From: a virus | Direction: 5' to 3' (one strand) | IMG/VR virus record: IMGVR_UViG_3300015371_000003 | Coordinates: 52,230-116,229 of that record | DNA length: 64,000 nucleotides | Translations under genes and position numbers: made by a program | The notes under the pieces: model-generated | The model's database searches: none | The model's input: only the letters and a program-made list of their open reading frames with translations | What the model was told of the DNA's origin: nothing | Part shown: piece by piece, positions 3,626-23,891 of the stretch | How the letters are laid out: every line of letters begins with the position of its first letter | Position numbering within the stretch: the first letter of the stretch is position 1

Positions 3626-3626
3626 G

Positions 3627-5144
3627 ATGCCGACGCTCGATCTGCGGACGTATGTGCTGTTGGAGCGGGCCTTTGTCCGGAGGCTCCAACGGTCATGGCG
3701 GCAGCAGTCGGCTCCGCTGTACGCGAAGATTGCCCAAGCCTGCAACGACCACAAATGGGATGAAGCCCGCCGTCTTGTCACCGATCTGGACATGACGGAG
3801 GTCGGCACCGAGAACCGCGAGTGGATCACGTACATGCTCCGGTCGTGTGCCGTCTTCGGAGCCGGTACCGTCTCCAAGAAGAAACCGAGTTTCGTGGGCG
3901 TGGGCAGCTTCGATACCTTCCTGAAGCAGACCACGAACAATTTCCTGCAATACCTCGAATTGACCGCCACCGCTCAGATCCAAGCGGAAGCGTTGCAATC
4001 AATTGCCGAAGATGAGGCTAAGACCAAAGCCGCGATGTTGAAGGCGGCATGGGATGAATCCCAACACCCCCGTGACAAGGAAGGACAGTTCACGGAGGCC
4101 GGGGCCGGAACGGAGGCCAAGTCGGGGGATCCCGAAGGCAGTGGCCCCGCCCGTGTGGAATGGAACAAGCGCAACAAGGCGGTGATGGAAGCGACTGATG
4201 TCTATATTGACACCAGAGAAGCCCATCGAGCTTTAGTGGAGCGATTGAACGCTGAATATCAGGCGGAAACCCCGATGGGGTATCCAGAGGCCGGGTATGC
4301 GGCGTACAAGAAATCCCAAGCCACATTGGAGCAGGCCAACCAAGCGTTGGCACAGGCCGAAACTGCGCTGAAGCAACAAGAACCGCTGATGCGGAAGGAA
4401 ATCGTCCAGAATCTGGCGACAGACGTAGCCAGTGATTTGGGCGTTGATCCACGTTTGATTGACGTGGTGGACGAAGCTCCGCATCCGTTTACGGTTGGAG
4501 ATAAGCAATTTACCGAGGCGGGGCACTACGATCCGACTACCAAACGCATTCAGTTGAATTCCAACAATATCTCGTATGCGAATGCCCCCGGAGTCAAGGG
4601 GGTGGTAGCCCATGAAATTTCTCATGCGATCTATCACCAGTTGAAGATTGCGGCGGAGGAGGAATTTCAACGGTATCTCGTCAAAGCTACGACCGAGGAT
4701 GCCTATACCCCGTGGTTTCATGAGCGGTTTACCACCGATCCCCATAAAATTGGCCGTCAGGTGAAGCCCGAGTACGCCAAGGAAATGGCCGAGGAATTTC
4801 CGGCGTCTACCGTGCTGGCCCGGTTGAGTGGGGGAGATATTTTCTCCGGTATCACTGATGAGATGATTGCTGAAAATGGGCATAGTCGGTATGCCAAATC
4901 GTACTGGGCCGCTGAAGCCGAGAAACGGATAGGGCTGCGGAATTACCGTAACGCCATCAATGAAACGATAGCCGAGATTACGCGGTGGTTGGCCTACCCC
5001 CGGTCATGGGAGGAGGAGAAGCCACCGGATCTGGATTCTCCGTGGGTCAAGTTGACAGAATCCATGTTGGGATGGCATCAACGACAGCAAGCTGAACAGG
5101 CGAGGCAGTTTGCCGCGTCTTTGGCGTCGGGGTTCCGAGCATGA
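3627..5144 (+). CDS. N-terminal half of minor head protein fused to tag and zincin metalloprotease
   Basis: 505 residues; the ATG at 3627 directly follows the portal stop. Residues 1-135 are helical (LLERAFVRRLQRSWRQQ...) and resemble the N-terminus of SPP1 gp7/Mu gpF-type minor head proteins, which normally follow the portal. Residues 142-153 carry the recurrent tag WDESQHPRDKEGQF. A coiled coil follows (about 225-265), then a metalloprotease-like domain with HEISH at 329-333, the HExxH zinc site of zincins. The C-terminal half of the minor head fold is missing here but appears in the gene at 10366. The protein is probably in the virion; whether the protease acts in assembly or in the host is unknown. 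Confidence 0.7.
   Translation: MPTLDLRTYVLLERAFVRRLQRSWRQQSAPLYAKIAQACNDHKWDEARRLVTDLDMTEVGTENREWITYMLRSCAVFGAGTVSKKKPSFVGVGSFDTFLKQTTNNFLQYLELTATAQIQAEALQSIAEDEAKTKAAMLKAAWDESQHPRDKEGQFTEAGAGTEAKSGDPEGSGPARVEWNKRNKAVMEATDVYIDTREAHRALVERLNAEYQAETPMGYPEAGYAAYKKSQATLEQANQALAQAETALKQQEPLMRKEIVQNLATDVASDLGVDPRLIDVVDEAPHPFTVGDKQFTEAGHYDPTTKRIQLNSNNISYANAPGVKGVVAHEISHAIYHQLKIAAEEEFQRYLVKATTEDAYTPWFHERFTTDPHKIGRQVKPEYAKEMAEEFPASTVLARLSGGDIFSGITDEMIAENGHSRYAKSYWAAEAEKRIGLRNYRNAINETIAEITRWLAYPRSWEEEKPPDLDSPWVKLTESMLGWHQRQQAEQARQFAASLASGFRA
3994..4007. repeat. 14-bp palindrome copy 2
   Basis: TGCAATCAATTGCC inside the 3627 gene; codons read L-Q-S-I-A. Confidence 0.7.
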
Positions 5145-6826
5145 TCCTGCCTGAACCTATCACCCTCAACGGTCGGACGGGTACCGTCGCCTATCTGGAC
5201 GCGCAGTGGCATCCAGTCCCGGCGGATCAGGCGACGATGGCGCGAGTCCTGTTCGATGATGGGGGGACTGGTTTCTTTCAGGTGCAACCGATTGCCAAAT
5301 CCACTGAAGATGCGGTAAAATGGGATGAGTCCAAACACCCCCGCGATAAAGAGGGGCAATTTACCGAAGGAGTCGGAGATGGACGAAGTGGTAAGACAAC
5401 CCCGGAATCTGACAGAGGAGCAGGAGGCAGCGGAGGAGTTGGCGTATCGACGCCCCCCAAAGGGGTGGAAGCCGCAGGTCAAAAACGCCCCCCCGCCGTC
5501 CCCGAAGTCCAAGCCGTAGCGCGGGCGTATAACGCGCAGCACGGACTGCCCCCGGTCGAGCACGGCTATGCGACGGTGAATGAGGCCCGAGCAGGGGCCA
5601 TTGCCGATGCCTATGACGCGCTTCCGGTGGATGATACGGATAATCCAGCGGTGCGGGAGGCGTATGCGGCCCTGAGTCGAGAGATTCAGGAGCAGTGGGA
5701 TTTCATCACCTCTCACGGGGTGACGTTCGAACCGTGGACTGGAGAGGGACAGCCGTATCAGAATTCGCCGGAGATGGTGGCGGACATTCAGAAGAACCAC
5801 CACCTGTATTTCTTCACGGGTGGGGAGCCGCATCCGTTGTTGGGGGCGATTGATCCGGCGACGGGGCTGTCCATGAACGACAAACTGCGAGCAGTCCATG
5901 ACTACTTTGGGCATGCCGCAGGCGGCTATGGATTCGGAGCGAGAGGCGAGGAGAATGCGTGGCGGGCGCATTCCCAGATGTTCAGCGCCCAAGCGAGACG
6001 GGCGATGACGACGGAGACACGCGGGCAGAATTCGTGGGTGAATTTCGGGCGACAGAACTACACGCCTGAGGGCATCTACAAGAATATTCCCGCCGCCGAG
6101 CGTCCGTATGCGGTGCAGAAGGTGGCGATTCTCCCCGATGTGTACGTGGTCTTGGAGCATGGTGGAGTCCTGAAATGGGAGGAGTCACAGCATCCACGGG
6201 TGCCGGGAGGGGAGCATGGCGGAGAGTTTACGCGAGTCGCCATTACGAGTCAGCGACCGGCGGATGACCCCGGCCATCAGACCAATCGGGAAGTGTTTGA
6301 GCACATGCGCGTGTTTGCAGGCCGATTGGCAGCCATCCCCGGCGTGACCAACGTGTCGGTGAAGCCCGGAGTCGGGGGGTGGGACGGCGGAGCCGAATCG
6401 ATGTGGCAAGTGTTCTATCGGGGGAATGGTGAAGCTACGCGGTTGGTGGCGATGACGGCCAAGCACTTCAATCAGGATGCGGTGTTGATCCTTAAGAAGT
6501 GTCAGGGTGGAGCGGATTGTCAGCCCGCTACGGAATTGCATTTCTCCAAGGGGATTGGCGGGAAGGTTCGTGTGGGCGTCGAGAAAGTACTGGTTGAGCA
6601 TAAGATTAAGGGCTGGACGTGGATGAAGCGCGACGGACGGACCATTCTTCGAATGGTGGCGATTCCCGAAGAAGGGGATGATCCGGTCACGCATCAGCAG
6701 ACGACAGCGGTGATTAGTCAGCAGTTGCGGGATAAGGGCTTGATGAACAAACGGCACGTGCAAAAGGTGGCCGTGAGTATGATGCGGCGTGAAGGACCAA
6801 ACAGTTATGACCGAATCCTTGGATAA
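5141..6826 (+). CDS. Two-tag virion cargo candidate with a conserved FGHAA/RGQNSWVNFG domain
   Basis: 561 residues, overlapping the previous stop by ATGA. It carries the tag twice: WDESKHPRDKEGQFT from residue 61, and the long variant WEESQHPR..GGEHGGEF from residue 346. Between them, residues about 250-300 contain HDYFGHAAGGYGFG, ARGEENAW and TRGQNSWVNFG. I recall this motif set from other large phage proteins near portals, but its biochemistry is unknown to me. After the second tag comes another unassigned globular domain. The architecture is two independent modules, each preceded by a tag. The linker around residues 80-125 is Gly/Ser-rich and overlaps another reading frame. Confidence 0.65.
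   Translation: MILPEPITLNGRTGTVAYLDAQWHPVPADQATMARVLFDDGGTGFFQVQPIAKSTEDAVKWDESKHPRDKEGQFTEGVGDGRSGKTTPESDRGAGGSGGVGVSTPPKGVEAAGQKRPPAVPEVQAVARAYNAQHGLPPVEHGYATVNEARAGAIADAYDALPVDDTDNPAVREAYAALSREIQEQWDFITSHGVTFEPWTGEGQPYQNSPEMVADIQKNHHLYFFTGGEPHPLLGAIDPATGLSMNDKLRAVHDYFGHAAGGYGFGARGEENAWRAHSQMFSAQARRAMTTETRGQNSWVNFGRQNYTPEGIYKNIPAAERPYAVQKVAILPDVYVVLEHGGVLKWEESQHPRVPGGEHGGEFTRVAITSQRPADDPGHQTNREVFEHMRVFAGRLAAIPGVTNVSVKPGVGGWDGGAESMWQVFYRGNGEATRLVAMTAKHFNQDAVLILKKCQGGADCQPATELHFSKGIGGKVRVGVEKVLVEHKIKGWTWMKRDGRTILRMVAIPEEGDDPVTHQQTTAVISQQLRDKGLMNKRHVQKVAVSMMRREGPNSYDRILG
5283..5296. repeat. 14-bp palindrome copy 3
   Basis: TGCAACCGATTGCC inside the 5141 gene; codons read V-Q-P-I-A. Confidence 0.65.
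5379..5519 (+). CDS. Possible overlapping 46-residue gene inside the cargo gene
   Basis: In another frame of the 5141 gene, an ATG at 5379 is preceded by AAGGAG at 7-nt spacing and opens 46 codons ending at TAG 5517-5519. The peptide is charged and protein-like (RNLTEEQEAAEELAYRRPP, then a Lys/Pro-rich tail). The main frame here encodes only a low-complexity Gly/Ser linker. That suggests the alternative frame may be the more constrained one, or that the two frames were joined by an old frameshift. Comparison with relatives is needed. Confidence 0.35.
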   Translation: MDEVVRQPRNLTEEQEAAEELAYRRPPKGWKPQVKNAPPPSPKSKP

Positions 6827-8003
6827 GGCGTTACAGGAATTGGAACAGCTTGTGGCAGAAGAAGCCGCGTCATCGGACACGGGTGAAGATTTGCCAGAGT
6901 ATGATCCGCTGCCTGAAGACGATGACGATGTGTCAGTCACGTTTCTGGCTGGTCCTGCGGTGAAATGGGATCCATCCAAGCACCCGCGTGACAAAGAGGG
7001 GCAGTTCACGGACACCGTAGGCACCATCCGAGGAGTGGTTCGCACCACCGCTGAACAGGCCCGCCGGGATCTGGTCGCACTCGGGAAGAAGGTGGAGCAG
7101 TTAGACCACCGTCATGCGAAAGCCGCCGAGGAATCGCGGGTAGCGTGGGCGGCGTTCATGAAAGACGCACGGGAGCGGAAACGTCCCCTGAAGATTGACG
7201 GGGCGGCGGCGAAGAAATTGCCGTCCTACAAAGCCGCGCAAGCCGCCGATGCCAAGGTCATCGCCATTTCCGAGGAGACATCCCGAGTCGCCAGAGAAGT
7301 CAACAAAGAAGCGTTACGACAACTCGTGGTGCCGGAACGGGAGCGGTCCCTTGTGGAGTTTCTGGTTCCCGAGGGGCAATTGAATCCGGATCCACGGATT
7401 GAAGCTGGAATTGGCGACCACGCGAAGCGAGCGTTGGATGTCTTCCGCAAGTACGATGGGTCCGGGGAGTTGATGGGCGTCCCCATTCCACCGGGGAAAG
7501 AAGAACAGTTCAAAGAGATTTTTGGGGACGTGGAGTTTGAACATCTGCCGGATGGAAGTACGTGGGTGACGAAGAAGCTCCGGTTGACGCGGGCACCGGC
7601 TGGTGCGCGGGCCAATGCGTCGGCGTTTGGGGTACAAATTGGTGGGACTCGTGAGTTGGAGCGGACCATCTATCACGAGGTGGCGCACCATGTGGAGTTT
7701 GCCAACTCGGACATTTATCAGGCCGCTGTGGATCTGCGGGCTTCGCTTGCCAGCGAGTCTACGCCCAAGTCCTTGAATGACTTGAAGGGCGTGGGTGGGT
7801 ATGGACCCGAAGAAATTGCGCTGCCGGGAAAATTTCTCGATTCGTATGTGGGCAAGGTCTATCCGGAGGATGCACGGGCCACAGAAATGTTGTCCACCGG
7901 GATGGAGTACTATCTGACGGACCCGATTCGATTTGCCCGAGAAGCCCCCGAGCATTTCAAGTTTGTGTGGAACGTGATGCACGGGAAGTATCGGAGGAAG
8001 TAA
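6807..8003 (+). CDS. Tagged zincin metalloprotease, virion cargo candidate
   Basis: 398 residues. ATG 6807 is preferred over GTG 6789 because AAGGA lies just upstream of it. The N-terminus is acidic (residues 1-48), then the tag WDPSKHPRDKEGQFT starts at residue 54. A helical charged region follows. A zincin-type active site HEVAHH starts at residue 290, and a downstream ATEMLSTGMEYY stretch could supply the third metal ligand. The domain resembles phage zinc proteases found beside portal and minor head genes. It is only distantly similar to the HEISH protease two genes upstream, so the block holds two different zincins. Confidence 0.7.
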   Translation: MTESLDKALQELEQLVAEEAASSDTGEDLPEYDPLPEDDDDVSVTFLAGPAVKWDPSKHPRDKEGQFTDTVGTIRGVVRTTAEQARRDLVALGKKVEQLDHRHAKAAEESRVAWAAFMKDARERKRPLKIDGAAAKKLPSYKAAQAADAKVIAISEETSRVAREVNKEALRQLVVPERERSLVEFLVPEGQLNPDPRIEAGIGDHAKRALDVFRKYDGSGELMGVPIPPGKEEQFKEIFGDVEFEHLPDGSTWVTKKLRLTRAPAGARANASAFGVQIGGTRELERTIYHEVAHHVEFANSDIYQAAVDLRASLASESTPKSLNDLKGVGGYGPEEIALPGKFLDSYVGKVYPEDARATEMLSTGMEYYLTDPIRFAREAPEHFKFVWNVMHGKYRRK

Positions 8004-8230
8004 TGGTGGAAGTCGAAGTGTACGGCGAACGAGCACGGTGCCAAAACGGGGTGTGGACGGCGGAGAGTCAGGCGCTGACGGATCTGCTGAACGCTCCGTG
8101 GAATCAGCCGGATGCCTTCCGGTATCGGCTGGATCCGGATATCGATGCGGCGGAGCACGTCGTGAAGACGATGGGCGCACAGGTGATTTCCACCGAACCC
8201 CCGCCCACTGAACCCGGCGTGGTGTACTGA
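8003..8230 (+). CDS. 75-residue hypothetical protein coupled to the zincin gene
   Basis: The start overlaps the zincin stop (TAATG) with GGAGGAA upstream, so the two are translationally coupled. The product is acidic, mixed alpha/beta in appearance, with a Pro-rich end (TEPPPTEPG). It lacks the tag. Tight coupling suggests a partner or inhibitor of the preceding protease, but that is inference from position only. Confidence 0.6.
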   Translation: MVEVEVYGERARCQNGVWTAESQALTDLLNAPWNQPDAFRYRLDPDIDAAEHVVKTMGAQVISTEPPPTEPGVVY

Positions 8231-8245
8231 CGAAACCTTAGGAGT

Positions 8246-8259
8246 TGCACTTGAGTGCA
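8246..8259. repeat. 14-bp palindrome copy 4
   Basis: TGCACTTGAGTGCA, extended to TTGCAC...GTGCAA, between genes immediately 5' of the kinase ribosome binding site. Confidence 0.75.
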
Positions 8260-8273
8260 ACGGAGCAACGCCG

Positions 8274-10082
8274 ATGCGGTCGTACCGAGACATTCTCCGG
8301 GGGGCATTGCGTTACGTCCACATCCTCAAGTGGGATGAGTCTAAAATTCACCGTAATCCTGCCGGGAGTCCGGGTAGTTCCGGGGGGCAGTTTGCGAAGA
8401 TGGGGATGCGGGGGAGTGCGTATGGCACGGCTCCGGTGCCCTCCTCTGAAGCTATTGCCCGTATGCCAAGTGGGGCACCGGAAGCGATGGCCCACATGCG
8501 ACGGGCGGGCCTGATCGCACAGCAGGATCGGGAGAAGTATCAGGAATTAGCCGCAGCGGAATCCCAAGCGGTGCGTCAAGGCGGCGGCGTGGCCGGATGG
8601 CGGTCGAGGGATAAAGCCGCAGAGCGGTACAAGGATGTGCTGATCAACCGCCCCCGTGCGGAGAATTTCGAACCACCTCCTCCCCCACCCCCAGAACCCA
8701 CACCAGTACTCACGTCTGGCAGTGCCACCAGTGTCGTGAAGAAATTGGGCGGCAGTTCGAATGCCTGCTACGTCGTCCAGATGGAGGATGGTTCCAAAGC
8801 CTTCTTCAAACCGGAAGCCGGGGAGACGTGGGAAGCCGGGTTCTGCAACAACGACATTTCCACCTACATCACCAATAAAGACTTTTCACTGGCGGAGCGG
8901 GAAGCCACCGCACATGAAGTGTCTATCGCGTTGGGGTTTGGGGAGTTGGTGCCGGAAACCCATCTCCGTGAACACTTCGACGTGCCGGGGATCGATCTAG
9001 CCACCGATGATGAATCCGGCGGCGGTTACGATGAAGACTACGTGCGGAGCCTCTACAACCAGTACCATGAAAAAGCCCAAGAAAAGGCTTTTGATGAGGC
9101 TGGTGAGGAGATGGCGAATCAGTACTATGATGCTCAGCAGGAGCATTTGAGGGATGTCAAGAATCGCGCCGAGGAAATGACGGATATCTGGAATGAGGTA
9201 ATTAAGGAATTTCCAGATGGTCCGGACTACGGATCACAGTCGGCGTTGCAAGAACATCCTCGTCTCCCGCTTGGGTCACAGCACTTCAGCCGCCCCCCGC
9301 AGGTCGGGGTGGTTGATCCACTGGACGTGTTGAAAGAAGCGGATGTGGACATCTCGGCGGCGATGAACAATGAGGAGCGAGAACGGGTTGCGGACGTGTT
9401 CCGTGATCGGTTGAAAGCCGGTCATCAGGAACTAGGCGATGTGGACGAGGAAGCCGCCAAAGACGATCTGGATCGGGATCAGTGGTACGAGGATCACCAA
9501 AATACCGAGGCACGGTTAATCGAAAGCAAAATTCAGTCGTTTGATTCGTGGCGGCATAGTCAGGGTTACGACAGCGGCGATCAAGGAGGGGGCGGCAACG
9601 TCTTCAAGAATTCCGAGGCTCCTCATCCTCACGGCGGATCCCTGCAACGGTGGTTAAACAGCGGAGGCCGCGATGGGGATATGACCCATGAGGAGGCCAC
9701 GCAATTTGCGGTGCTCGATTATGTGTTGGGCACGATGGATCGGCACGGCAACAACATCATGTTCTCCGGTGGGAAAGCCTACGCCATTGATAACGGTTAT
9801 GCCTTCCCCGGCCCGGATACGCCCGATGGGTTTACTTACCGGTCAGATGCCGTACGGGAGTGGATGGGGGATGACCAACACCGCGAAGTCCCCGAAAGCA
9901 CCCGGAATGAAATCTTGGGAGCGATGAATCGGACGGACTGGAAAGCCTTGGTAGACCGTCACCCGAGCATGAGCCGGGAAGAACGGCAGTCGTTTCTGGA
10001 CCGGGTGGACAAGATGAAAGAAGCCCTGTCCTACGCCGAGGGGTTGTCCACCCTCTGGCATGACCAGCAATTGATGTATTGA
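8274..10082 (+). CDS. Tagged HipA/PI-kinase-like protein, virion cargo candidate
   Basis: 602 residues. The long tag variant begins at residue 20 (LKWDESKIHRNP...GSSGGQF). After a Pro-rich linker (about 138-150), a kinase-like domain begins: an ATP-lobe strand KAFFKPEAGE near residue 180, a catalytic-loop pattern DYVLGTMDRHGNN with H491 and N494, and a metal-binding D506 in AIDNG. This HxxN...D layout is that of HipA, FAM20 and phosphatidylinositol-kinase-like enzymes. A large charged helical insertion (about 245-420) separates the lobes. The substrate is unknown; the HipA relationship makes a host translation or regulatory target plausible. A 14-bp palindrome lies just upstream of its ribosome binding site. 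Confidence 0.7.
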   Translation: MRSYRDILRGALRYVHILKWDESKIHRNPAGSPGSSGGQFAKMGMRGSAYGTAPVPSSEAIARMPSGAPEAMAHMRRAGLIAQQDREKYQELAAAESQAVRQGGGVAGWRSRDKAAERYKDVLINRPRAENFEPPPPPPPEPTPVLTSGSATSVVKKLGGSSNACYVVQMEDGSKAFFKPEAGETWEAGFCNNDISTYITNKDFSLAEREATAHEVSIALGFGELVPETHLREHFDVPGIDLATDDESGGGYDEDYVRSLYNQYHEKAQEKAFDEAGEEMANQYYDAQQEHLRDVKNRAEEMTDIWNEVIKEFPDGPDYGSQSALQEHPRLPLGSQHFSRPPQVGVVDPLDVLKEADVDISAAMNNEERERVADVFRDRLKAGHQELGDVDEEAAKDDLDRDQWYEDHQNTEARLIESKIQSFDSWRHSQGYDSGDQGGGGNVFKNSEAPHPHGGSLQRWLNSGGRDGDMTHEEATQFAVLDYVLGTMDRHGNNIMFSGGKAYAIDNGYAFPGPDTPDGFTYRSDAVREWMGDDQHREVPESTRNEILGAMNRTDWKALVDRHPSMSREERQSFLDRVDKMKEALSYAEGLSTLWHDQQLMY

Positions 10083-10085
10083 AAC

Positions 10086-10114
10086 TTGACATATCCACCA
10101 TTTGGTGGTAAACT
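10086..10114 (+). promoter_or_regulatory. Strong sigma-70-type promoter with palindromic spacer
   Basis: TTGACA (10086-10091) and TAAACT (10109-10114) with exactly 17 bp between them. The spacer contains CCACCA-TT-TGGTGG, a 6+6 inverted repeat, in the ideal place for a repressor operator. It lies between the kinase gene and the small gene at 10135. Confidence 0.8.
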
Positions 10115-10134
10115 TACTACATGGGGGGTGTGTG

Positions 10135-10359
10135 ATGCACGTGGAATTGCTGGATGTTTCGTCAGGAAATGAGGAAGTGTACGGCACCGTCCGGATGGAC
10201 AACGGACAGGTGGTAGTCGAAGGGGACGTGCCCGCCCGTGTCAAACGAGATATCGAATTCGAGCGGCGGCACACCGATGTCGGGGACGAAGCGTTTCTTC
10301 TGCGCCTTGAACAGCGGGTGTTCACAGGCCGGTATCTGCGGGCGCGATTCGTGAAATAA
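10135..10359 (+). CDS. 74-residue hypothetical protein
   Basis: ATG at 10135 follows GGGGGG-TGTGTG and is 20 bp downstream of the promoter at 10086, so it is the first gene of that transcript. The product is predicted beta-rich and charged, with no cysteine clusters or membrane segment. No family recognised. As the first product of a dedicated promoter with a built-in operator it could be a regulator, but no helix-turn-helix is evident. Confidence 0.6.
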   Translation: MHVELLDVSSGNEEVYGTVRMDNGQVVVEGDVPARVKRDIEFERRHTDVGDEAFLLRLEQRVFTGRYLRARFVK

Positions 10360-10365
10360 TCCCCC

Positions 10366-13300
10366 ATGCTCCGTATCCACCCGCCGAAGGTGCAACCCAT
10401 TGCACCCTCCCTTCTTGAAGTCCTGAAGTTTGATCCGAGTGAACCTCGTGATCCTCACGGACGATGGACGACTTTCGGCGCGTCCATTCGAGTTGGGGAC
10501 CGAGAGATTGCCGTAGTCAAACCAGCCCGCGCCAGAGACGATCAACTGGTCCCCCTGAACGTCGTCGCATTTGATACCGAATTTCAGCGGGAGCAGGGGT
10601 TTTATCTGGGCGTCGGTGGAATTGGGGGGATCGGCACCCGCTACCAACGTTTCGGGGACTTCATTGCCTCTCATGACAGCATCGAAGCGGCGGAAGTGTC
10701 CGTGCAGGAGAACGGGCGCGTGGGTTTCACCAACGGACGCCACCGGTATGCGTGGCTCCGTGATCAAGGATTGACCACCATTCCCGTAGCCATGACCCCG
10801 GAGTCAGTCAGGAACGCCAAGAAGCATGGGTATCTGGCGGCGGTCAAGCTGGCGTGGGATGAGAGCCAACCTCGTGACGCTAAAGGACGGTGGGCAAAAG
10901 GATCAGCAGAACCTCCACCAGTCGGTCCACGTATTGGATTTGTGGGGCCGGATGGGAAGGAGCATGTTGGACGTAAGACGGGGGGATTAGGAGGGTATTC
11001 CGAAGATCACACGGACACGGCTCGCCGGTTACTAGATAAGGAATACTCCACGGCACTGAGTCAGGCGCAAGCACGTGGTGGGGATTACCCAAATGCCATT
11101 CGTTTGATGTTGGAACAAGGAGCCATTCGGTATTGGGTGCGGAACGGGGAGATTGCGCTGCATTTTCAAGCAGGCCACCCAAAGACCGTCGAACACGTCA
11201 TTCAATTTCTGCATGACAATTTTCAGGATGGGGATCGCATTTATATCGACATCGAAGGGGCCGAACCGCATGTGCATTTTTTCGATAATGTCGGAGCCGC
11301 GAATCGTACTATTCGTCAGACAAAGCCACTCAAGAAGGTGGCGCAAGAGCATTCCTACGGCAACACCCAGATTCAAATTGCTCCGACCAGTGCCGCCGCA
11401 CTTTCTCTGAATATGGCCCGTGCTGCCATCCGCGATGAACATTGCATGGCAACCGGCAAGGATGTGGATCCGAACCATGTGACGGTGCGCTTCGGCCTCC
11501 TGAACGATGATCTGGATGGTCTGCGGTCGTTTATTGTCCGTCAACAGTCCTTCGAAGCTGAGGTCGGAGAGATTGAACTATTCCCGGCCAGTGAGCACAG
11601 CGATGGAGCCGTGCCCGTCGTGGCCCGCATCGTCAGTCCCGAGTTGCATGCCATCGAAGCGGAGATAGGGCAGTATGCCGACTTCAAGGATAAGAATTTC
11701 CCCGAGTACAAACCCCATTGCACCCTTGCCTACGTCCACCCGGACAAAGCGGATTACTACCGTGATCTGTTCGTCAACGGATCGTTCGTGGTGCAGAGCA
11801 TTACCATCAGTCATGCCTCCGGGGTGCAGGAGACGATCCCCTTCGGGATGGCCCAGAAGTGGGACGTGACGAAGCGGGATGGCAAGAGCACCCGCTTTCA
11901 TAATCGTCCGCATTGGGCCGAGAGCCTACACCCACGTCAGCCTGCGGGATCTTCTCGCGGCGGCGAATTCATGTCCACGTTGCATGGTCCTAGAGATGCG
12001 TTGGATTCTCTGCTCAACAAAGAGAAGAACGTCAGCATTGACCGGAATGATGTCCGTCGCTTTCTCGAATTAGCCGGGGAGCAACTGGAAGATCCGGACC
12101 TCACCGATTTGCAAGTCGAGGGGATGGAGATTTTTGGGGGCAATGGTCTGGGCATCAAACGTGATCAGATGCCGCAGATTCCCCGTGAGCATCGGCAACG
12201 ATTTTTGAGAGAGTTGGTGGCGGCGGGTGTCAAGATTACGGAGGAGTCCGTCGATCCCCTCACCCTGAAACCCACCCAGAAGGAAATCTCCGCCCGCCGG
12301 GTGATGGAGAAGATTACCAAGTACGAAACCAAGAACAAAGCCTTTCCTCCCCTCCTCGTCTCTCTGGATGACCGAGTATTAGACGGCCATCATCATTGGG
12401 GCATGATGGCGGCATTTGCGCTGGATGTACCGGAGGCCAAGGTGCCCATCTTCCGGTTGCACATCAAGACCAAAGCCGCCTTGTCCATGATGCACGCTTA
12501 CATGCGAAAGCACCACATCAAGCGGGCGTCGATTACCGGGGAGAAGATTGCAGCGGATCCAGTCACAGGACGCTACGTTACACCTTTCGTCTCTTTCGAA
12601 AAACAAGGCGATGAACAACTCCGGATGATCGCCAGTCTCAATTCCAGCCGGTTGGCGACGTGGGGATTCACGGCAGAGGCCGAAGTCTTGGGGATGGCCC
12701 GGTACAAGTTGACCGCTGTACTGGACGGTCGCACCAGCAAATTCTGCCGGATGATCAACGGACATATCTTCGACGTGCCGGATGCCCGCCGCAAGGTGAT
12801 CGAAGCCCTGAACGTCCAAGACCCGAACGACTTGAAGACGGTGCAGCCGTGGCCCAAGCAAACCAAGGAGGCGATGGCTGAGTACGCCAAGATGAGTCCA
12901 CAGGATTTTGTGGATCGGGGACTGCACATTCCTCCGTATCATCCCCACTGCCGCACGCTCCTCCGCCATGTGCAATCAAGTGCAGGGAAAGCCACCGAAC
13001 CTCCGGTCCCCACCCTCCCTGATGACACCGAGGTGTTCCATCCGATCACCCAAGCGGACTTGAAAGAGTTGGGGGTGGAGGCCACGCCCGAAGAAGTTGC
13101 GTGGTGGAACAGTCAGATTGGGATGAGTCCCACGGAGTTGATCGCCAAGCTCACCGGCATGCCGCCCCAAGAAATTCTGACCAAGGGCAAAGGCATCGGA
13201 GCCAATCCTATTCGCTTCGATGAGGGGGGCGCGGGGAACATCGGCGTCCGAGCCAGAGGCGAACTACCGAGCGGCGTGGAATTCGCCATGGGCGCGATTC

Positions 13301-13773
13301 TCGATCCGTTCACAGGCATTTTCTACTTGTCAGAAGCCGCACTGGAAGTCGGAACACCAGCGGCAGAAATCTCGTTTCTCAAGAATCTGTTCTCGGAGAT
13401 GATCAATACCGGCCTTCGCACGTCAGCGACCGAAGTGGCGGTGGGCGTGGCCGGGAATGCGGCGTATTATGCGAAACTCGGTTTCCTCCCCGATGATTTG
13501 GAGTGGGAGACGCTACGCACGCATACGTTGACGGAGCTAGAGAGCGGTGGATTGCAGGAGATGTTTCAGTCCTTGGCCCCGCTGGATCAGGAACTGGTGA
13601 AGCATCTGTTGCAGGATCAATCCGCGTCAGCCCTTTCCGCATTGGTGGATCTGCCATTCACCTACGAAGGCCGTACATTCGGAGAGTGGATGCTGGAAGA
13701 TGCGGGCGGGACGTGGGGATTGGATCTGACGGATGAGGCGGTAGTGAACCAAGCGAAAGCCTACCTGTCATGA
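10366..13773 (+). CDS. Giant polyvalent head protein: ParB-like, 2H phosphoesterase, minor-head C-domain, GNAT-like
   Basis: 1135 residues with at least six modules. Tag 1 is near residue 22 (KFDPSEPRDPHGRW). A ParB/sulfiredoxin-like domain carries NGRHRY at 123-128. Tag 2 starts at 164 (WDESQPRDAKGRW). After an unassigned domain comes a 2H phosphoesterase with HVT at 371 and HCT at 451. Long tag 3 starts near 517. A second ParB-like domain has DGHHHW at 673-678. Residues about 745-875 match the C-terminal half of SPP1 gp7/Mu gpF minor head proteins (VLDGRTSKFCRMINGHIF ... PPYHPHCRTLLRHV). The end (about 955-1045) looks GNAT-like, with GNAAYYAKLGF. It is probably a virion component delivering several enzymes. 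Confidence 0.75.
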   Translation: MLRIHPPKVQPIAPSLLEVLKFDPSEPRDPHGRWTTFGASIRVGDREIAVVKPARARDDQLVPLNVVAFDTEFQREQGFYLGVGGIGGIGTRYQRFGDFIASHDSIEAAEVSVQENGRVGFTNGRHRYAWLRDQGLTTIPVAMTPESVRNAKKHGYLAAVKLAWDESQPRDAKGRWAKGSAEPPPVGPRIGFVGPDGKEHVGRKTGGLGGYSEDHTDTARRLLDKEYSTALSQAQARGGDYPNAIRLMLEQGAIRYWVRNGEIALHFQAGHPKTVEHVIQFLHDNFQDGDRIYIDIEGAEPHVHFFDNVGAANRTIRQTKPLKKVAQEHSYGNTQIQIAPTSAAALSLNMARAAIRDEHCMATGKDVDPNHVTVRFGLLNDDLDGLRSFIVRQQSFEAEVGEIELFPASEHSDGAVPVVARIVSPELHAIEAEIGQYADFKDKNFPEYKPHCTLAYVHPDKADYYRDLFVNGSFVVQSITISHASGVQETIPFGMAQKWDVTKRDGKSTRFHNRPHWAESLHPRQPAGSSRGGEFMSTLHGPRDALDSLLNKEKNVSIDRNDVRRFLELAGEQLEDPDLTDLQVEGMEIFGGNGLGIKRDQMPQIPREHRQRFLRELVAAGVKITEESVDPLTLKPTQKEISARRVMEKITKYETKNKAFPPLLVSLDDRVLDGHHHWGMMAAFALDVPEAKVPIFRLHIKTKAALSMMHAYMRKHHIKRASITGEKIAADPVTGRYVTPFVSFEKQGDEQLRMIASLNSSRLATWGFTAEAEVLGMARYKLTAVLDGRTSKFCRMINGHIFDVPDARRKVIEALNVQDPNDLKTVQPWPKQTKEAMAEYAKMSPQDFVDRGLHIPPYHPHCRTLLRHVQSSAGKATEPPVPTLPDDTEVFHPITQADLKELGVEATPEEVAWWNSQIGMSPTELIAKLTGMPPQEILTKGKGIGANPIRFDEGGAGNIGVRARGELPSGVEFAMGAILDPFTGIFYLSEAALEVGTPAAEISFLKNLFSEMINTGLRTSATEVAVGVAGNAAYYAKLGFLPDDLEWETLRTHTLTELESGGLQEMFQSLAPLDQELVKHLLQDQSASALSALVDLPFTYEGRTFGEWMLEDAGGTWGLDLTDEAVVNQAKAYLS
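10391..10404. repeat. 14-bp palindrome copy 5
   Basis: TGCAACCCATTGCA with flanking GG/CC, in the first codons of the giant head gene (V-Q-P-I-A). Confidence 0.7.
12971..12984. repeat. 14-bp palindrome copy 6
   Basis: TGCAATCAAGTGCA within the giant head gene (V-Q-S-S-A). Confidence 0.65.
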
Positions 13774-14007: not shown

Positions 14008-14526
14008 ATGCCCCTACATACGACCGGATTGACTTCGCGGCACGACCTCGATCATCCGGACGAGAAACCTCCTGCGAAGGCCGATCCGCTGCCCTATGAA
14101 CGGGTGTTGAAGTTCAACCCCAATCATGGGCCGGATGGCCGGTTCACCTCCGGCGGTGGAGGCCGCAGAGGTGGGACGGAAGGTCCACCGCGAGTGGGAG
14201 CCTTCGGGCAGAAGCTGTCTCCGGCGGAGGTTGAGTTTCGGGTTTCTCGCCCGAAAACATATCAAGATCGATTGAAAGGTTCAGCGGCACGAGCCGCGAA
14301 TGATGCGAGGCTGGATCGACAGCAGGCGGAAGTCGCCCGTCAGCAACAAGAATCTCTCGCAGAAGCAACAAGAATTATTTCTGGAGTGACCTATGCCTCA
14401 GCGGGGCGTCAAGCATCGGCCCGCCAGATGCTGAGCAATGCGAGTCTTGCGACTCGTGCGACGACTACCACGCACACGGGTTCGATGGTCGGAGGTGTTC
14501 CCACCAAGCGATCCACTTTCAGCTAA
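14008..14526 (+). CDS. Tagged low-complexity protein without recognisable enzyme domain
   Basis: 172 residues. A degenerate tag starts near residue 34 (LKFNPNHGPDGRFTSGGG). The rest is Gly-rich, then helical and Gln/Ala/Arg-rich, ending in a Ser/Thr-rich tail. No catalytic motif is visible. It fits the block as a carrier of the tag alone, either a structural filler or a decayed cargo gene. The ATG at 14008 has GGGAGAG upstream. Confidence 0.6.
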   Translation: MPLHTTGLTSRHDLDHPDEKPPAKADPLPYERVLKFNPNHGPDGRFTSGGGGRRGGTEGPPRVGAFGQKLSPAEVEFRVSRPKTYQDRLKGSAARAANDARLDRQQAEVARQQQESLAEATRIISGVTYASAGRQASARQMLSNASLATRATTTTHTGSMVGGVPTKRSTFS

Positions 14527-14847: not shown

Positions 14848-15924
14848 ATGCCGATTACGGAAGGCTTTACCACACGGGGGATGGTCGCCAAAAGTGGCTA
14901 CTCGTGTGTCGGTCCCCCCAAGCAAGGGCACATGGAGAAGCGGGGGCACCAGAAGAAACGGAAAGCCGCCTCCTATCTGGGGGTGTTGAAGTTTGATGAA
15001 AGTGCGGTCAATCGCCAACCAGCGGGTGCTCCCGGTAGCAAAGGCGGAGAATTCGCCCCGAAAGGTCAAGGATTTAAGGGGAGTACCGGCAGCAGAACTG
15101 GTAAAGATTTGACGCCCGCTCAGCGAGCCATGCAGCGGACGTTGAAGGAACAGAGCCGCAAGCGCATCCATAAAGTGGACACCCCCGAACAAGGGGTGGC
15201 GCTGATTCTCAAGGGCGAACGGGTGGAATTACGGGACACCAAAGATGTTCACACGGTCCTCAAAGAACTAGGCGAGATGGCGATCAAAGCCAAGGAAGCC
15301 TGTGGCGGGAAGGAACCGTGTGAAGGCGTCCCCAATTTCGATCCCTGTCTGGTGACGGTCAAAGGCACCAGCTTGTTTTGCTCTGAAAAACTCAAAACGA
15401 AAGAATTTCCTCACGGGATTCCGCGTATTGAGATGCCGCAGTTCAAGTCCAAGAATCCCGTGCCGGGGAGCGAAGCCGATAAACTGCCCCGTGATGCCAA
15501 CGGAGAAGTGGATGCTACGGATGCGTTTCTCAAGCATCTGGATGAAGCAGGTGTGAAAACAAATTCGTATGACACCGTGCTTGCCCGCAAATTGAAGGCG
15601 AGTCAGGCGGAGATGGAAGGCGCGAAAGTCGCCGCCATGATGCTGTCGTCACGGGATCCCAAGAAAGCCCGTATTGTGGTGTCGGCAGACAACTACGTGG
15701 TGGATGGGCACCACACGTGGGCCGCGTCGGTGGGCCGGGATGCTGAGGACGGCAATCTGGACAACGACAAAGAAATGGAAGTGGTCCGGATCAATCTGCC
15801 GATGTCCGACATCTATCAGTTGGCGGTGGAGTGGACCAAGACTTTTGGCATGCCGCAAGCCGGTATCAAAAAGCGTGATTGGTTGAGGGCTGTGCTCACC
15901 TTCGGGCAGGCGTCTCTCAACTGA
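14848..15924 (+). CDS. Tagged ParB-like domain protein
   Basis: 358 residues. Order: N-terminal MPITEGFTTR leader shared with the preceding gene product, basic linker, long tag variant from residue 47 (LKFDESAVNRQPAGAP...KGGEF), an unassigned cysteine-bearing region (about 145-190), then a ParB-like domain with VVDGHHTWAA around residue 286. The DGHHxW motif matches the second ParB-like domain of the giant head protein, so the two are intragenomic paralogues attached to different partners. ParB/sulfiredoxin-like folds can be nucleases, CTPases or kinases; which applies here is unknown. Confidence 0.65.
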   Translation: MPITEGFTTRGMVAKSGYSCVGPPKQGHMEKRGHQKKRKAASYLGVLKFDESAVNRQPAGAPGSKGGEFAPKGQGFKGSTGSRTGKDLTPAQRAMQRTLKEQSRKRIHKVDTPEQGVALILKGERVELRDTKDVHTVLKELGEMAIKAKEACGGKEPCEGVPNFDPCLVTVKGTSLFCSEKLKTKEFPHGIPRIEMPQFKSKNPVPGSEADKLPRDANGEVDATDAFLKHLDEAGVKTNSYDTVLARKLKASQAEMEGAKVAAMMLSSRDPKKARIVVSADNYVVDGHHTWAASVGRDAEDGNLDNDKEMEVVRINLPMSDIYQLAVEWTKTFGMPQAGIKKRDWLRAVLTFGQASLN

Positions 15925-15935
15925 ATGGAGAGCCT

Positions 15936-16676
15936 ATGCCAACAAGACAGGTACTGATTCAGGGCATCATGACGTGGGATGAGCCGACACAGCCTCAGCC
16001 CCCGAGTGGTGCTCACCCGGAGCATCCGATCTTCTATCCACCGGGGATCTGGGGACCGACCGATCCTCGTCCTTCGAATCCGATTGCCAACGTTCCCGGT
16101 ATCAGCAATCCCAATCCTCCGGGGTGGGGTCAGCGACCGGAACATCCCATCGTGCTGCCTCCTCCGGGTGGTGGCGGTGGGACTCCTCCGGGGATCTGGG
16201 GGGGAGGCAATCAGCCGTTCCCCACGCCCCCGATTGCCAATGTGCCGGGGATCGACAATCCCAATCCTCCGGGCTGGCAACCGCCGGGGATCTGGGGTCC
16301 ACCGGGACCGTGGCCCACTCCGCCGATTGCGTTTCCGCCCGGATGGGTAGGAGGCGTACCACCCGGTGGGGGGACTCCGCCGTCCGGTGCTCATCCGGAG
16401 CATCCCATCGTGCTGCCGCCGAACGTGCCGCCATCAGGACCGGGAGGTCCGAGCGGAGGCGTTCCGACGCATCCCATCGGTGGGGTGCAAGGTCCAGCCG
16501 GGATGTTCGTGTGGTACTGGTCCCCGGCATGGGGGTGGTTCGCAGTGCCTGCGAGCGGGCCGATTCAGCCGCCGCAACAGCCACCGACGCAGCCTCCGAC
16601 CGAGCCGCCGTTACCGGGAGATATTCCGCATCCGGAGCATCCGATTGTGCTGCCGCCGGAAGCGGAGCCGAAGTAG
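15936..16676 (+). CDS. Proline-rich repeat protein with PEHPIVLPP motifs
   Basis: 246 residues starting at ATG 15936; the longer open frame from 15879 overlaps the previous gene. Composition is dominated by Pro, Gly and Trp. The motif (H)PEHPI(V)LPP or a close variant occurs at least four times, and PGIWG, NVPGI(S/D)NPNPPGW and PPI(A)xxPG units recur. Such a protein would be extended or polyproline-helical, perhaps a capsid-associated spacer or decoration. An N-terminal TWDEP may be a remnant of the tag. Located directly before the protease gene. Confidence 0.65.
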   Translation: MPTRQVLIQGIMTWDEPTQPQPPSGAHPEHPIFYPPGIWGPTDPRPSNPIANVPGISNPNPPGWGQRPEHPIVLPPPGGGGGTPPGIWGGGNQPFPTPPIANVPGIDNPNPPGWQPPGIWGPPGPWPTPPIAFPPGWVGGVPPGGGTPPSGAHPEHPIVLPPNVPPSGPGGPSGGVPTHPIGGVQGPAGMFVWYWSPAWGWFAVPASGPIQPPQQPPTQPPTEPPLPGDIPHPEHPIVLPPEAEPK

Positions 16677-16690
16677 CAGGGGAGGGGCGT

Positions 16691-17287
16691 ATGCCGAAAC
16701 CAAAACACAAGGCACTCGTGATCAAGAACGAAGAAGCACAACTTGTGTTTGGGGAGGTGTACGCCCCGAACCGTCCCGACGCGCAAGGTGAGTACATGAC
16801 GGCCACGGACATTCAGAAGATGGCCCATGAATTCATCCGGTCAGGCAAGATGGGTCAGATTGATGTGATGCACGGGAACAAAGTGGTGACGGGCGCGAGT
16901 GTGGTTGAGTCCTTCGTGGCGGATGACACGGATTCCCGCTTCCTGCCCGGTTCGTGGGTGATCGGTGTCCACATTCCCGATCCTCAACTCTGGTCTGCCA
17001 TCAAGAAGGGTGAAATCAACGGCTTCAGCATGGAAGCCTTGGTGACACGCCATGAGATGGATGTGGAAGTCGAAATTCCTCCGGTGGTCACAGGCTTGAC
17101 CAGTAAGCATGACGATCATCAACACAAATTTTTCGTCGCCTACGACCAAAAAGGGGAATTCAAAGGCGGTGTGACGGATACGGTCAATGGGCATTTCCAT
17201 GCGATTGTCGCCGGGACACATACTCAGGATGCCGCAGGCCACCGTCACCGCTTTTCTAGCGTTGATAACGTGCGGATTCTAGGGTAG
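16691..17287 (+). CDS. XkdF-like prohead serine protease
   Basis: 198 residues from ATG 16691, preceded by GGGGAGGGG; the longer open frame upstream is in the proline-rich gene. LVFGEVYAPNRPDAQGE(Y)MT near residues 18-37 and the downstream helix are typical of phage XkdF-type proteases (peptidase S78-like). Candidate catalytic residues are H61 (VMHGN), S113 (NGFSMEA) and possibly E73. The enzyme would process scaffold and other head proteins during maturation. The C-terminal 60 residues are unusually His-rich (HDDHQHKF, NGHFHA, GHRHRF), suggesting a metal site not needed for S78 catalysis. Confidence 0.8.
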   Translation: MPKPKHKALVIKNEEAQLVFGEVYAPNRPDAQGEYMTATDIQKMAHEFIRSGKMGQIDVMHGNKVVTGASVVESFVADDTDSRFLPGSWVIGVHIPDPQLWSAIKKGEINGFSMEALVTRHEMDVEVEIPPVVTGLTSKHDDHQHKFFVAYDQKGEFKGGVTDTVNGHFHAIVAGTHTQDAAGHRHRFSSVDNVRILG

Positions 17288-17297
17288 TCTTGCACAC

Positions 17298-18392
17298 ATG
17301 GCTACGATTCAAACCAAGCTGAAGCAGTTGCGAAACGCGGATGTCCGGTTTATTTCGCTGGTGGATCGTGCCGCCACGCGCATTCCCTTCCGGGTGCTGA
17401 AGCGGAACAAGGAGAATTCGATGGGCATTGATTTGACGAGCGTGTTCAAGTCGGAGGCACAAGTACCGCCACACGTCTCGGCAGTGGTGGTCTTTGCCCA
17501 GAAGAATGAAGCCGCCGGGAAGCAGATCGCGGAGGCGATCAAGGCCCACGGCTTCATCACGGATCGGGTGCAGAAATCTGACGAGGGAGAAACGCTGGTG
17601 TTCTCCCAAGGCGATCAGCCGAAGGACACCGTGGTCGTGCGTCTGAGCGATCAGATGCTGGTGTCGGTAGCTGGTCTGGGCATCCCCGAAGGATGGGTGG
17701 GGGATCTGGTCGAGGAGCACGGTTTCTTCCCCGATCTGGCAATGGCGAATGCGGCGATGGAAGATCGGTTGCAGGAAGTCGTCACCAAGTCCGAAGCCCC
17801 GCAGCAGGACGCCCAAGCGGTGCTCACCAGCTATGCTCAGTACGTGAGCCAGATGGCGGTGTTGCCGACCGCCGTGTTCAAGCTGGATGAAGCCATCCGT
17901 GACATCGTGCAGAAGTGCGCGTGTCAGGAACCGGCGGAAAAAACCGACGATGCCTCGCCCACCAAGAAGATCGTGGAGAAGGCGGCAGGCACCACGGAAA
18001 CCGACGCGGAGAAAGCGAAGCGAGTCAAGAACCATCCGCCTGCGGAGATGGCTCCTCCGGACGAAGACGACGATCAGAAACCACCACCGGATGAAGTCAA
18101 CAAGTCCGACGAATCGGCTATTCTCACGGCGCTGAAGGGCATCGAAACGACCGTCTCCGGGTTGTCCGCCAAGCTGGAAACGGTTGTCACCGAGCAAGTC
18201 GCGCAGAAGAAAGTGCTTGACGACGTGGTGCAGAAATCCGACACTCTGGCAACTACGTTGAAGTCCACCGTGACGGCTCCCCCGCTCGCAGGGGATCATC
18301 CGGCGGGCCTTCCCCGGATGCGGGTGGAGAAGCAGGACACGGATCCCCGCACGGGCAATTTCGACACGGCGTTTCTCCGGAGACGGCGCTAG
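17298..18392 (+). CDS. Scaffold-like protein with XkdF-type N-terminus
   Basis: 364 residues. The N-terminus (VRFISLVDRAATRIPFRVLKRN) matches the ISLVD(R/K)xAxRxxF signature often found in XkdF-family proteins. After a globular middle, residues 225-345 are highly charged and predicted coiled coil, as expected for a scaffold. The C-terminus is Arg-rich (FLRRRR). Position between protease and major capsid gene is the canonical scaffold slot. The ISLVD module and the protease core are separate genes here, whereas I recall them together in some phages. Confidence 0.65.
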   Translation: MATIQTKLKQLRNADVRFISLVDRAATRIPFRVLKRNKENSMGIDLTSVFKSEAQVPPHVSAVVVFAQKNEAAGKQIAEAIKAHGFITDRVQKSDEGETLVFSQGDQPKDTVVVRLSDQMLVSVAGLGIPEGWVGDLVEEHGFFPDLAMANAAMEDRLQEVVTKSEAPQQDAQAVLTSYAQYVSQMAVLPTAVFKLDEAIRDIVQKCACQEPAEKTDDASPTKKIVEKAAGTTETDAEKAKRVKNHPPAEMAPPDEDDDQKPPPDEVNKSDESAILTALKGIETTVSGLSAKLETVVTEQVAQKKVLDDVVQKSDTLATTLKSTVTAPPLAGDHPAGLPRMRVEKQDTDPRTGNFDTAFLRRRR

Positions 18393-18432: not shown

Positions 18433-19377
18433 ATGACGAATCAGGAAGTGATCATCCAGAAAGCTGATCTGGCGCTGAGTGATCTGGCGACCGCCGGGAA
18501 GCTGAATCCCGAGCAGACCGACCGGTTCATTCGGACGCTGATCGATCAGCCGACGTTGCTCGCCTCTGTCCGCACGGTGGCGATGGGCGCTCCGCAGATG
18601 AAGATCAACAAGATCGGATTCGGGAGCCGCATTCTGCACCCGGCAGTCAGCGCCACCCCGCTGCCTGACAACCTCCGCTCGAAACCCGATCTGGGTCAGG
18701 TCCAACTCGAAACCGCCGAAGTCATCGCGGAAGTTCACATTCCGTACGATGTCATCGAGGACAACATCGAGAAGGGCAACGTCAACGTGCCGATGCAAAC
18801 CGGCGCGGGCGGATTGCATCAGACCATCGTGGACCTGATGGCGGAACGGGCGGCTCTCGATCTGGAGGAACTTGCCATTCAGGGCGATACCACCAACGTG
18901 GGGGATCCCTATCTGGCCCTTCAGGACGGGTACCTGAAGATGGCGACGGCGAACGTCGTCAACGTCGGGGGCGCGTTCGACAAGACGGCGGTCAAACAGG
19001 CGCTCAAGACGATGCCCACCCGGTACCTCCGGAACCGGAGTGCCATGTCGCACTTCGTCTCCGTGGACAACGAGACGGAAATCCGTGACCAGTACGGCGC
19101 ACGGCAGACGGCACTCGGGGATCAGCAGTTGCAGGGGCTGCTGCCCGTTTACATCTACGGTTCGAAGGTCGTGCCGGTTGCCATGATGTTGGGCACCAGC
19201 GGGCTGTTCACCGATCCGATGAACCTGATCTTCGGGATCCAGCGCAACATCATGATCGAGTACGACAAGGACATCCGGGCGCGGGTGTTCATCATCGTGC
19301 TGACGGCCCGCATCGACTTCGCCATCGAAGAAGCGAACGCCGTCGTCAAGTACACCGGCATCACCGGAAGCCGGTAG
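18433..19377 (+). CDS. Major capsid protein (HK97 fold, PBSX-like)
   Basis: 314 residues, preceded by AAGGAG. The N-terminal helix, SVRTVAMGAPQMKINKIGFGSRIL strand region (about residues 49-71) and AEVHIPYDVIEDNIEK segment (about 97-112), followed by a helix with MAERAALDLEELAIQGDT, follow the layout of XkdG/SPO1-type HK97-fold capsid proteins. The length is right for a mature-sized protein with no long delta domain, consistent with a separate scaffold gene. It lies directly after protease and scaffold. Confidence 0.85.
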   Translation: MTNQEVIIQKADLALSDLATAGKLNPEQTDRFIRTLIDQPTLLASVRTVAMGAPQMKINKIGFGSRILHPAVSATPLPDNLRSKPDLGQVQLETAEVIAEVHIPYDVIEDNIEKGNVNVPMQTGAGGLHQTIVDLMAERAALDLEELAIQGDTTNVGDPYLALQDGYLKMATANVVNVGGAFDKTAVKQALKTMPTRYLRNRSAMSHFVSVDNETEIRDQYGARQTALGDQQLQGLLPVYIYGSKVVPVAMMLGTSGLFTDPMNLIFGIQRNIMIEYDKDIRARVFIIVLTARIDFAIEEANAVVKYTGITGSR

Positions 19378-23400: not shown

Positions 23401-23891
23401 GTAAGTTGAACGAAGTCTTGGATGAAGCCAAGCAGCGGTTGCTGCAATTGAATGCACCACCCGTGACCCTCACCGGCAAGGTGGTCGTGGCCTACGATGA
23501 GAACGATTTGCTGGATGTGCTGAAGGGCGTCCGGTCGTTTCCTGCGGTGGGTATCGTCTACGAAGGCATGCGCTCCATGTCGGAGGAGCCGAATCCTACG
23601 GCGAAGGTTGGGCTGTCGTGTGAAATCGTGTTGGGCTTTGTGCTGGTGGAACGGGGTGATGAAATTCACGCCACCGACCAGAAGAAAACCCGAGCGATTG
23701 ATTACTTGGATGCGATGCGCCTGCAATTCATCGGGCAGCGCAGTACTGTCTCGAAACACTATTGGCACTTCATGGTAGAGGCTCCTGCCGCGCTTCGATC
23801 CGGAGCCGTCTGTTGGGTACAGCGATGGTCCTTGCCAGTGCAACTGCCTCACTTGCCCCCGAACGGCCAGCAACACCCGTTCTGCCCGTAG
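23397..23891 (+). CDS. Tail terminator-like protein
   Basis: 164 residues with a GTG start overlapping the preceding stop. Its place, between tail-completion protein and tail genes, and its size fit a tail terminator or gp37/DUF1834-like protein that caps the tube. The first 135 residues look alpha/beta. The last 35 (Trp/Pro-rich) overlap the next gene by 67 bases in another frame, so they may be an added tail created when the downstream island was inserted. Identification is mainly positional. Confidence 0.5.
   Translation: MSKLNEVLDEAKQRLLQLNAPPVTLTGKVVVAYDENDLLDVLKGVRSFPAVGIVYEGMRSMSEEPNPTAKVGLSCEIVLGFVLVERGDEIHATDQKKTRAIDYLDAMRLQFIGQRSTVSKHYWHFMVEAPAALRSGAVCWVQRWSLPVQLPHLPPNGQQHPFCP
23443..23456. 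repeat. 14-bp palindrome copy 9
   Basis: TGCAATTGAATGCA inside the tail terminator-like gene (L-Q-L-N-A). Confidence 0.65.

Follow-up and report, generated by a model that had tools for sequence, protein, structure and literature searches.

Why would a phage repeat one short peptide among the unrelated modules of a single protein? The question is raised by a 64,000-nucleotide stretch of the IMG/VR virus record IMGVR_UViG_3300015371_000003 (bases 52,230-116,229 of the 116,229-base record; hereafter “the window”, to which all coordinates refer unless another locus is named). An open reading frame (ORF) at 10366-13773 on the plus strand encodes a protein of 1135 amino acids, and an earlier sequence-only reading had described three copies of a short peptide (the “tag”) in this chain alone, as if marking module junctions or cleavage. 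We found the same tag in six neighboring ORFs as well. We favor the interpretation that it is a head-packaging or delivery tag, akin to the capsid-targeting sequences of phages T4 and P1, and we place the probability of this at a little over one half.

A conserved peptide tag in a cluster of head genes

The window contains ten tags, one of them weak, in seven ORFs. All are plus-strand tags and lie at 4.0-15.1 kb, where a portal gene is followed by the series of tagged ORFs, an XkdF-type protease and a virion structural protein. The tag occurs in two forms: a short one, WDESxHPRDxxGxF or FDPxxPRDxxGRW, and a long one that carries an insert, HPRxPxGxxxGGxF. In a 26-row sample the P, R, D and G were invariant.

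At a threshold of 8 bits, two hidden Markov models (HMMs), one for each form, identified 422 tags in 284 ORF segments, as compared to one match in reversed copies and four in shuffled copies (two per HMM; none at 10 bits). The 422 matches are a measure of specificity and not of prevalence, because the tag itself served to retrieve most of the loci and there is overlap among several of them. Strict peptide matches in these fetched loci lay in open segments of at least 100 amino acids in 170 of 173 cases. When 47 control loci (411 kb) were fetched with an arbitrary 16-mer, 8-bit matches occurred in five and were convincing in one (L159). An exact-pattern scan of IMG/VR returned at least 119 stretches, and a second pattern returned 22. 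Bacterial genomes yielded 39 tag stretches, in records labelled Gastranaerophilales, Treponema, Clostridia, Actinomadura, Acinetobacter, Rhodoblastus, Stieleria and others.

Among the five short tags of the window, same-residue codon pairs were identical in 37 of 80 comparisons versus 30.9 expected from codon usage. There is thus no conservation at the DNA level beyond codon usage, which indicates that the tag is conserved as protein and not as DNA.

Tags are N-terminal to diverse cargo

In 68 of 154 complete, distinct ORFs, no more than 40 amino acids separated the first tag from the earliest possible start, while in two of the 154 the last tag was within 40 amino acids of the C-terminus. Many prophage proteins start with a tag, a few residues from their first amino acid. 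The tag therefore takes the N-terminal position on cargo that defines capsid-targeting sequences, and internal tags exist as well. Where a protein carried several tags, the gaps between them were domain-sized (n = 107; smallest, 89 amino acids).

To describe the cargo we scanned the modules that follow tags, covering 145 of 166 non-redundant clusters. The commonest Pfam families in these 145 stretches were ART-PolyVal (five), zeta toxin (four), ADPrib_exo_Tox (four) and GNAT (four). Among PHROGs they were head maturation protease (four), minor head protein (three), ADP-ribosyltransferase (three) and Alt-like protein (two). In the stretches that precede a first tag (n = 65), portals were the commonest PHROGs.

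The genes surrounding tagged ORFs were also those of phage heads. From a random 120 of 191 non-redundant neighbors, with own-family loci excluded, portals and large terminases led the best 25 of 72 families; from 120 of 429 control genes, with the tagged control L159 excluded, the best 25 of 221 families did not include a portal. MuF domains were present in 23 of 48 tagged records, hand-picked from the first listing at about 19 kb and up (not all such records), compared to 4 of 34 random records (those of at least 12 kb among 47), one of the four being itself tagged (Fisher p = 0.0007). The S78_2 protease occurred in 11 of the 48 tagged records and 2 of the 34 random ones (p = 0.06). A strict tie between the tag and an XkdF-type protease was rejected on these counts.

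In locus L022, positions 6952-9450 encode a tagged ORF of 833 amino acids, and the record to which this ORF belongs (G010) contains an S78_2 protease domain within a frame of 833 amino acids. These are probably the same chain, in which a protease and a tag share one polypeptide.

Modules of the 1135-amino acid protein

The region 10366-13773 is a single open frame in which tags start at residues 22 (FDPSEPRD), 164 (WDESQPRD) and 517 (WAESLHPRQ), as the sequence-only reading had stated. The HMMs scored the first tag (residues 19-39; 10420-10482) at 18.4 bits, the second (residues 159-180; 10840-10905) at 28.8 bits and the third, a long form (residues 512-539; 11899-11982), at 44.5 bits. An AlphaFold2 model built on 27 rows had a mean predicted local distance difference test score (pLDDT) of 61, with confident blocks at approximately 40-155, 333-495 and 540-720 and a fair block at 960-1135; the MuF region was modelled poorly. 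All three tags fall where confidence in the model is low (block means of 49, 49 and 40).

The earlier module list comprised two ParB-like domains, a 2H phosphoesterase, a minor-head domain and a GNAT-like end, and all but the last gained support. Residues 36-159, approximately (10471-10842), form an Osa/PFIN-like module of the ParB/Srx superfamily. Residues 18-159 matched the fold of Osa (VIA) with a Z score of 10.7 (root-mean-square deviation [rmsd] 3.5, 128 residues aligned), while the PFIN family match (PF22162, E = 5e-4) was below the cut-off. After the second tag comes a module without an assigned function (approximately residues 183-325; 10912-11340). The ParB-like module after the third tag (residues 542-718; 11989-12519) has the sequence DGHHHW at residue 673, conserved as DGHHxW. 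Its block at residues 544-715 belongs to phrog_2859 (E = 2e-31), and residues 619-714 matched a ParB N-domain with a Z score of 6.7 (rmsd 3.7, 89 aligned), under the caution level of 8.

The 2H phosphoesterase domain spans residues 327-495 (11344-11850), with HVT at 371 and HCT at 451, and matches PF13563 at the cut-off (E = 5e-6). Its model has the 2H fold: LigT gave a Z score of 13.1 (rmsd 2.9, 148 aligned), Acb1 gave 11.0 (rmsd 3.1, 134 aligned) and most 2H enzymes gave 9-14. The anti-defense role suggested earlier is plausible, given that all eight aligned 2H modules preserve both HxT motifs and that the fold search also returned Acb1. However, LigT and Usb1 fit the modelled domain equally well or better than Acb1, so that the substrate is not narrowed to the Acb1 type. 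The Acb1 family itself (PF23474) matched the protein at E = 0.0015 with a score of 18.7, below the cut-off of 27, and PADLOC gave no match for the protein.

The MuF minor-head core lies at 12556-12975. It matched TIGR01641 (E = 7e-8) and PF04233 (E = 0.0018), both under the curated cut-offs, and residues 736-866 (131 amino acids) are 57% identical to the minor-head protein gp2 of Stenotrophomonas phage DLP_5. On this sequence similarity we consider the protein a MuF homolog. The core opens at 12556-12588 with the tag-like sequence DPVTGRYVTPF (DPVSGRYVTPF in relatives, alignment A2). The tag may have originated at this minor-head junction at the start of MuF, or MuF may itself carry a degenerate tag.

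The conserved C-terminal domain (residues 884-1135; 13015-13770) has a GNAT-like order of elements that is unproven. Modelled alone it reached a pLDDT of 66, and this low-confidence model had no clear fold match, the two acetyltransferases listed having Z scores of 3.6-3.7. The family alignment, used as a profile against PDB sequences, gave no match. The GNAT-like end is therefore unconfirmed.

A split minor-head gene with cargo between its parts

Relatives align to the 1135-amino acid protein piecewise, and their modules are inserted, dropped or moved at tags. In locus L005 the stretch corresponding to residues 164-324, with its own tag, is placed after the 2H domain; loci L003, L063 and L113 have additional tagged modules; and the forms in L096 and L052 consist of the 2H, MuF and C-terminal domains alone, without tags. 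Together with the spacing of tags and their position in low-confidence stretches of the model, these rearrangements bear out the suggestion that tags mark module junctions.

In DLP_5, a single tag-free minor-head gene lies between the portal and XkdF protease genes. The N-terminal part of its product (gp2, residues 3-138) is homologous to the start of window ORF 3609-5144 (35% identity over 136 amino acids, E = 1e-21). In DLP_5 this part ends at position 2272 and MuF begins at 2324, approximately 50 bases on in the same ORF. In the window, on the other hand, the N-terminal part (3633-4016) ends at 4016 and MuF begins at 12556, 8.5 kb apart with eight tags between them, the first (4038-4109; 45.7 bits) approximately 20 bases after the N-terminal part. 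The two parts are 10.9 kb apart in L001/L002, approximately 13 kb apart in L003 and L052, and 5.6 kb apart in L096. Since the parts are adjacent in DLP_5 and separated in the window, the cargo array sits inside a minor-head gene. We infer that the split form derived from the single-chain form and not the reverse.

Tagged genes outside the head cluster

On this genome, the tag profile gave eight matches. Seven belong to the head cluster, and the eighth lies 14 kb upstream of the portal (G000:C1:39665-39739; locus L241). A remote tagged locus was also present 14-18 kb upstream of the portal in relatives G001, G018 and G036, in which the portal could be placed; G008 and G026 have a remote tagged locus as well. 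Restriction of the tag to the head cluster was therefore rejected. Of the ten remote tagged ORFs, five resemble ADP-ribosyltransferase exoenzymes (E = 0.01 or better), and relatives carry such genes at a position comparable to that of L241; HD-hydrolase and HEVAHH-like motifs were seen by eye.

Isolates were sought by tblastn with short consensus peptides, which gave weak matches (E = 0.3-7), followed by inspection. In Gordonia phage Forza the portal is directly followed by a tagged gene and then by genes for an ADP-ribosyltransferase and the head maturation protease. In Mycobacterium phage Konstantine and Nocardia phage P3.1, the protein annotated as head protease opens with a tag-like peptide. 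Forza, Gilgamesh, Orimi01 and a Helicobacter prophage, the sole isolate examples scored with the tag HMM, gave 18-23 bits.

Comparison with known systems

Polyvalent phage proteins were described by Iyer et al. 2017 (PMC5512222). The 1135-amino acid protein is a probable member of this class, as it joins two or more disparate domains in one polypeptide and is encoded among virion genes, with the portal upstream and the protease and virion structural protein downstream. The published proteins likewise combine disparate enzymatic domains in one chain, are encoded in a late-gene context, include 2H-MuF fusions and ParB-like, zincin, ADP-ribosyltransferase and GNAT modules, and are predicted to be packaged and injected. 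The architecture, called extreme in the sequence-only reading, is thus less so than it seems. Unlike here, the sections of that paper covered do not mention a shared short tag or a minor-head gene split by cargo.

The closest functional parallels are the capsid-targeting sequences found in the internal proteins of T4 and in DarB of P1, short N-terminal peptides through which cargo of various kinds enters the head; a reporter is packaged when it carries just the first 30 residues of DarB, and in the part of that report covered its authors found no consensus among P1 Dar N-termini (PMC9024508). As described there, each is confined to one phage group, whereas here a single consensus spans very different phages and is also internal. 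In MuF polymorphic toxins (Jamet et al. 2017, PMC5576092), effector domains are also fused to MuF. By the available account the delivery domain of those proteins is N-terminal and the toxin C-terminal (PMC12226406), whereas in the 1135-amino acid protein tagged modules with known enzymatic folds precede MuF.

The minor-head proteins of DLP_5 and DLP3 contain both the N-terminal part and the MuF core. These phages have one short, tag-free gene, in contrast to two genes with cargo between them here. The portion of the DLP3 study covered reports gp2 in virion ghosts by mass spectrometry, with eight unique peptides (PMC7326821). Acb1 and other 2H phosphoesterases share the fold and the two HxT motifs with the modelled domain, which differs from them in being embedded in a head protein. 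We found no description of the tag in the literature searched on the motif, polyvalent proteins, capsid targeting and packaged effectors, which was covered in part and did not extend to subscription papers and outside preprints.

Other genes of the locus

The portal gene (1631-3625, plus strand, as are all genes of this paragraph; phrog_12, E = 4.5e-20) precedes ORF 3609-5144, which after its minor-head part and tag encodes a zincin-like peptidase module with weak matches to Zn_peptidase_2/SprT. The next ORF (5141-6826) has two tags, at 5306-5377 (44.8 bits) and, in the long form, at 6164-6238 (42.2 bits), with a phrog_3170 module and a weak S-AdoMet lyase match. ORF 6789-8003 has one tag (6954-7022; 44.2 bits) and a HEVAHH metallopeptidase-like motif read by eye. 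ORF 8274-10082, with one long-form tag (8325-8399; 26.9 bits), is PI3/4-kinase-like or SCO1664-like (PF00454, E = 3.7e-8; TIGR03843, E = 2.6e-8, below cut-off). Following the 1135-amino acid protein are ORF 14008-14526, with the weak tag (approximately 14104-14163; 8.9 bits), and ORF 14848-15924, with one tag (14980-15066; 36.5 bits) and the ParB-like family that also occurs in the 1135-amino acid protein (phrog_2859, E = 1e-17). The XkdF-like (S78_2) head maturation protease is encoded at 16670-17287 (PF14550, E = 1.9e-24), and the virion structural protein, a putative major capsid protein, at 18433-19377 (phrog_1623, E = 8e-98). Neither the latter nor ORF 17298-18392 gave a match to the tag HMMs, even at 3 bits.

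Three glycosyltransferase genes (23762-24559, 24250-25395 and 26968-27729) lie among head-tail genes and are interspersed with an apparent methyltransferase and an HNH-like ORF (both read by eye); the glycosyltransferases possibly function in virion glycosylation. In locus L006, upstream of the window, a family A DNA polymerase at 7017-10277 is split by an intein splicing domain (PF14890, E = 1.2e-10). The same locus has a pyruvate phosphate dikinase-like phage gene at 334-2313 (PF01326, E = 7e-40; PEP-utilisers, E = 7e-22) and small dual-specificity/tyrosine phosphatase-like ORFs at 2957-3490 (by eye) and 4673-5407 (PF22785, E = 3.5e-7).

Possible roles of the tag

The tag is short, N-terminal, present on unrelated cargo and on head components, conserved as protein and found on separate genes in trans, and this combination fits a head-packaging or delivery tag. 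Under this interpretation the 1135-amino acid protein is the C-terminal half of a minor-head protein (2H, MuF and C-terminal domain) whose gene was opened and filled with cargo. Additional enzyme modules are spliced into the chain itself, and further ones are encoded by separate genes between the two halves. Some part of the head under assembly, such as the portal, the minor-head protein, a scaffold or an inner shell, would recognize the tag in trans as an N-terminal label on cargo modules. The tagged module could then be enclosed in the procapsid and leave with the DNA at infection, so that the enzymes would act on the new host; possible substrates of the 2H domain are RNA ends and oligonucleotide signals of the cyclic or 2'-5' type.

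Several observations weigh against this interpretation. Some stretches that follow tags belong to ordinary metabolic families, such as oxidoreductases and topoisomerases, and the internal tags of the 1135-amino acid chain would be redundant if MuF already carries it into the head. The enrichment among neighboring genes rests on the best 25 of 72 families versus the best 25 of 221, the greater length of the tagged records favors them over the random ones in the MuF comparison, and no one protease or head family occurs in every tagged record, many of which are fragments. Finally, we did not find packaging or injection data for any tagged protein, and it is therefore from the computed properties of the tag that we infer targeting, a receptor, injection and the targets of the enzymes.

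It could instead be speculated that the tag is a site recognized and cut by the head maturation protease, which would divide a packaged, polyprotein-like array of cargo into its modules. In T4 the prohead protease takes off the capsid-targeting peptide, the tags of the window lie at module junctions in stretches that are probably flexible, and an XkdF-type protease is encoded downstream. However, an N-terminal tag leaves nothing upstream to be released, protease sites are usually shorter than the approximately 14 conserved positions of the tag, tags are missing from the putative capsid protein and from ORF 17298-18392, and S78_2 was found in a minority of the tagged records. Cleavage, which the sequence-only reading had also proposed, is thus unlikely as the main role of the tag, although it is possible as a secondary one. 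Another possibility is that the tag acts on the way out and not on the way in, as an exit leader for threading through the portal and tail or for refolding in the host. The same N-terminal polarity and cargo types would be expected, and exit cannot be separated from packaging by sequence; this explanation is nevertheless improbable, as a tag-like peptide also opens annotated head maturation proteases, whose ejection would not be necessary.

The interdomain position of tags and the G/S-rich sequence that often follows them would suit a plain flexible linker, or a functionless relic of minor-head gene fusions. The invariant P, R, D and G argue against this, and a fusion scar is a poor explanation for a tag that opens stand-alone proteins, including ones encoded far from the head cluster; we consider it very unlikely. 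A recombination joint that acts at the DNA level and aids module shuffling would explain why modules swap, insert and move at tags. The codon comparison of the five short tags did not support it, and we regard it as the remotest of these explanations.

More broadly, a single portable peptide tag might mark protein cargo for the head in tailed phages of many bacterial phyla, as an address label that they have in common; we hold this proposal tentatively. If true, phages would assemble interchangeable kits of injected effectors, here by way of a minor-head gene opened for cassettes, and a search for the tag would directly list phage-delivered effectors. Were the tag to direct packaging, the question of which proteins are injected and how they are chosen would become a sequence search, and protein delivery from phage heads could be approached in a general way through the tag. 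Should it have no role in packaging, the split minor-head gene and its swappable tagged modules would still show how effector sets are built and exchanged.

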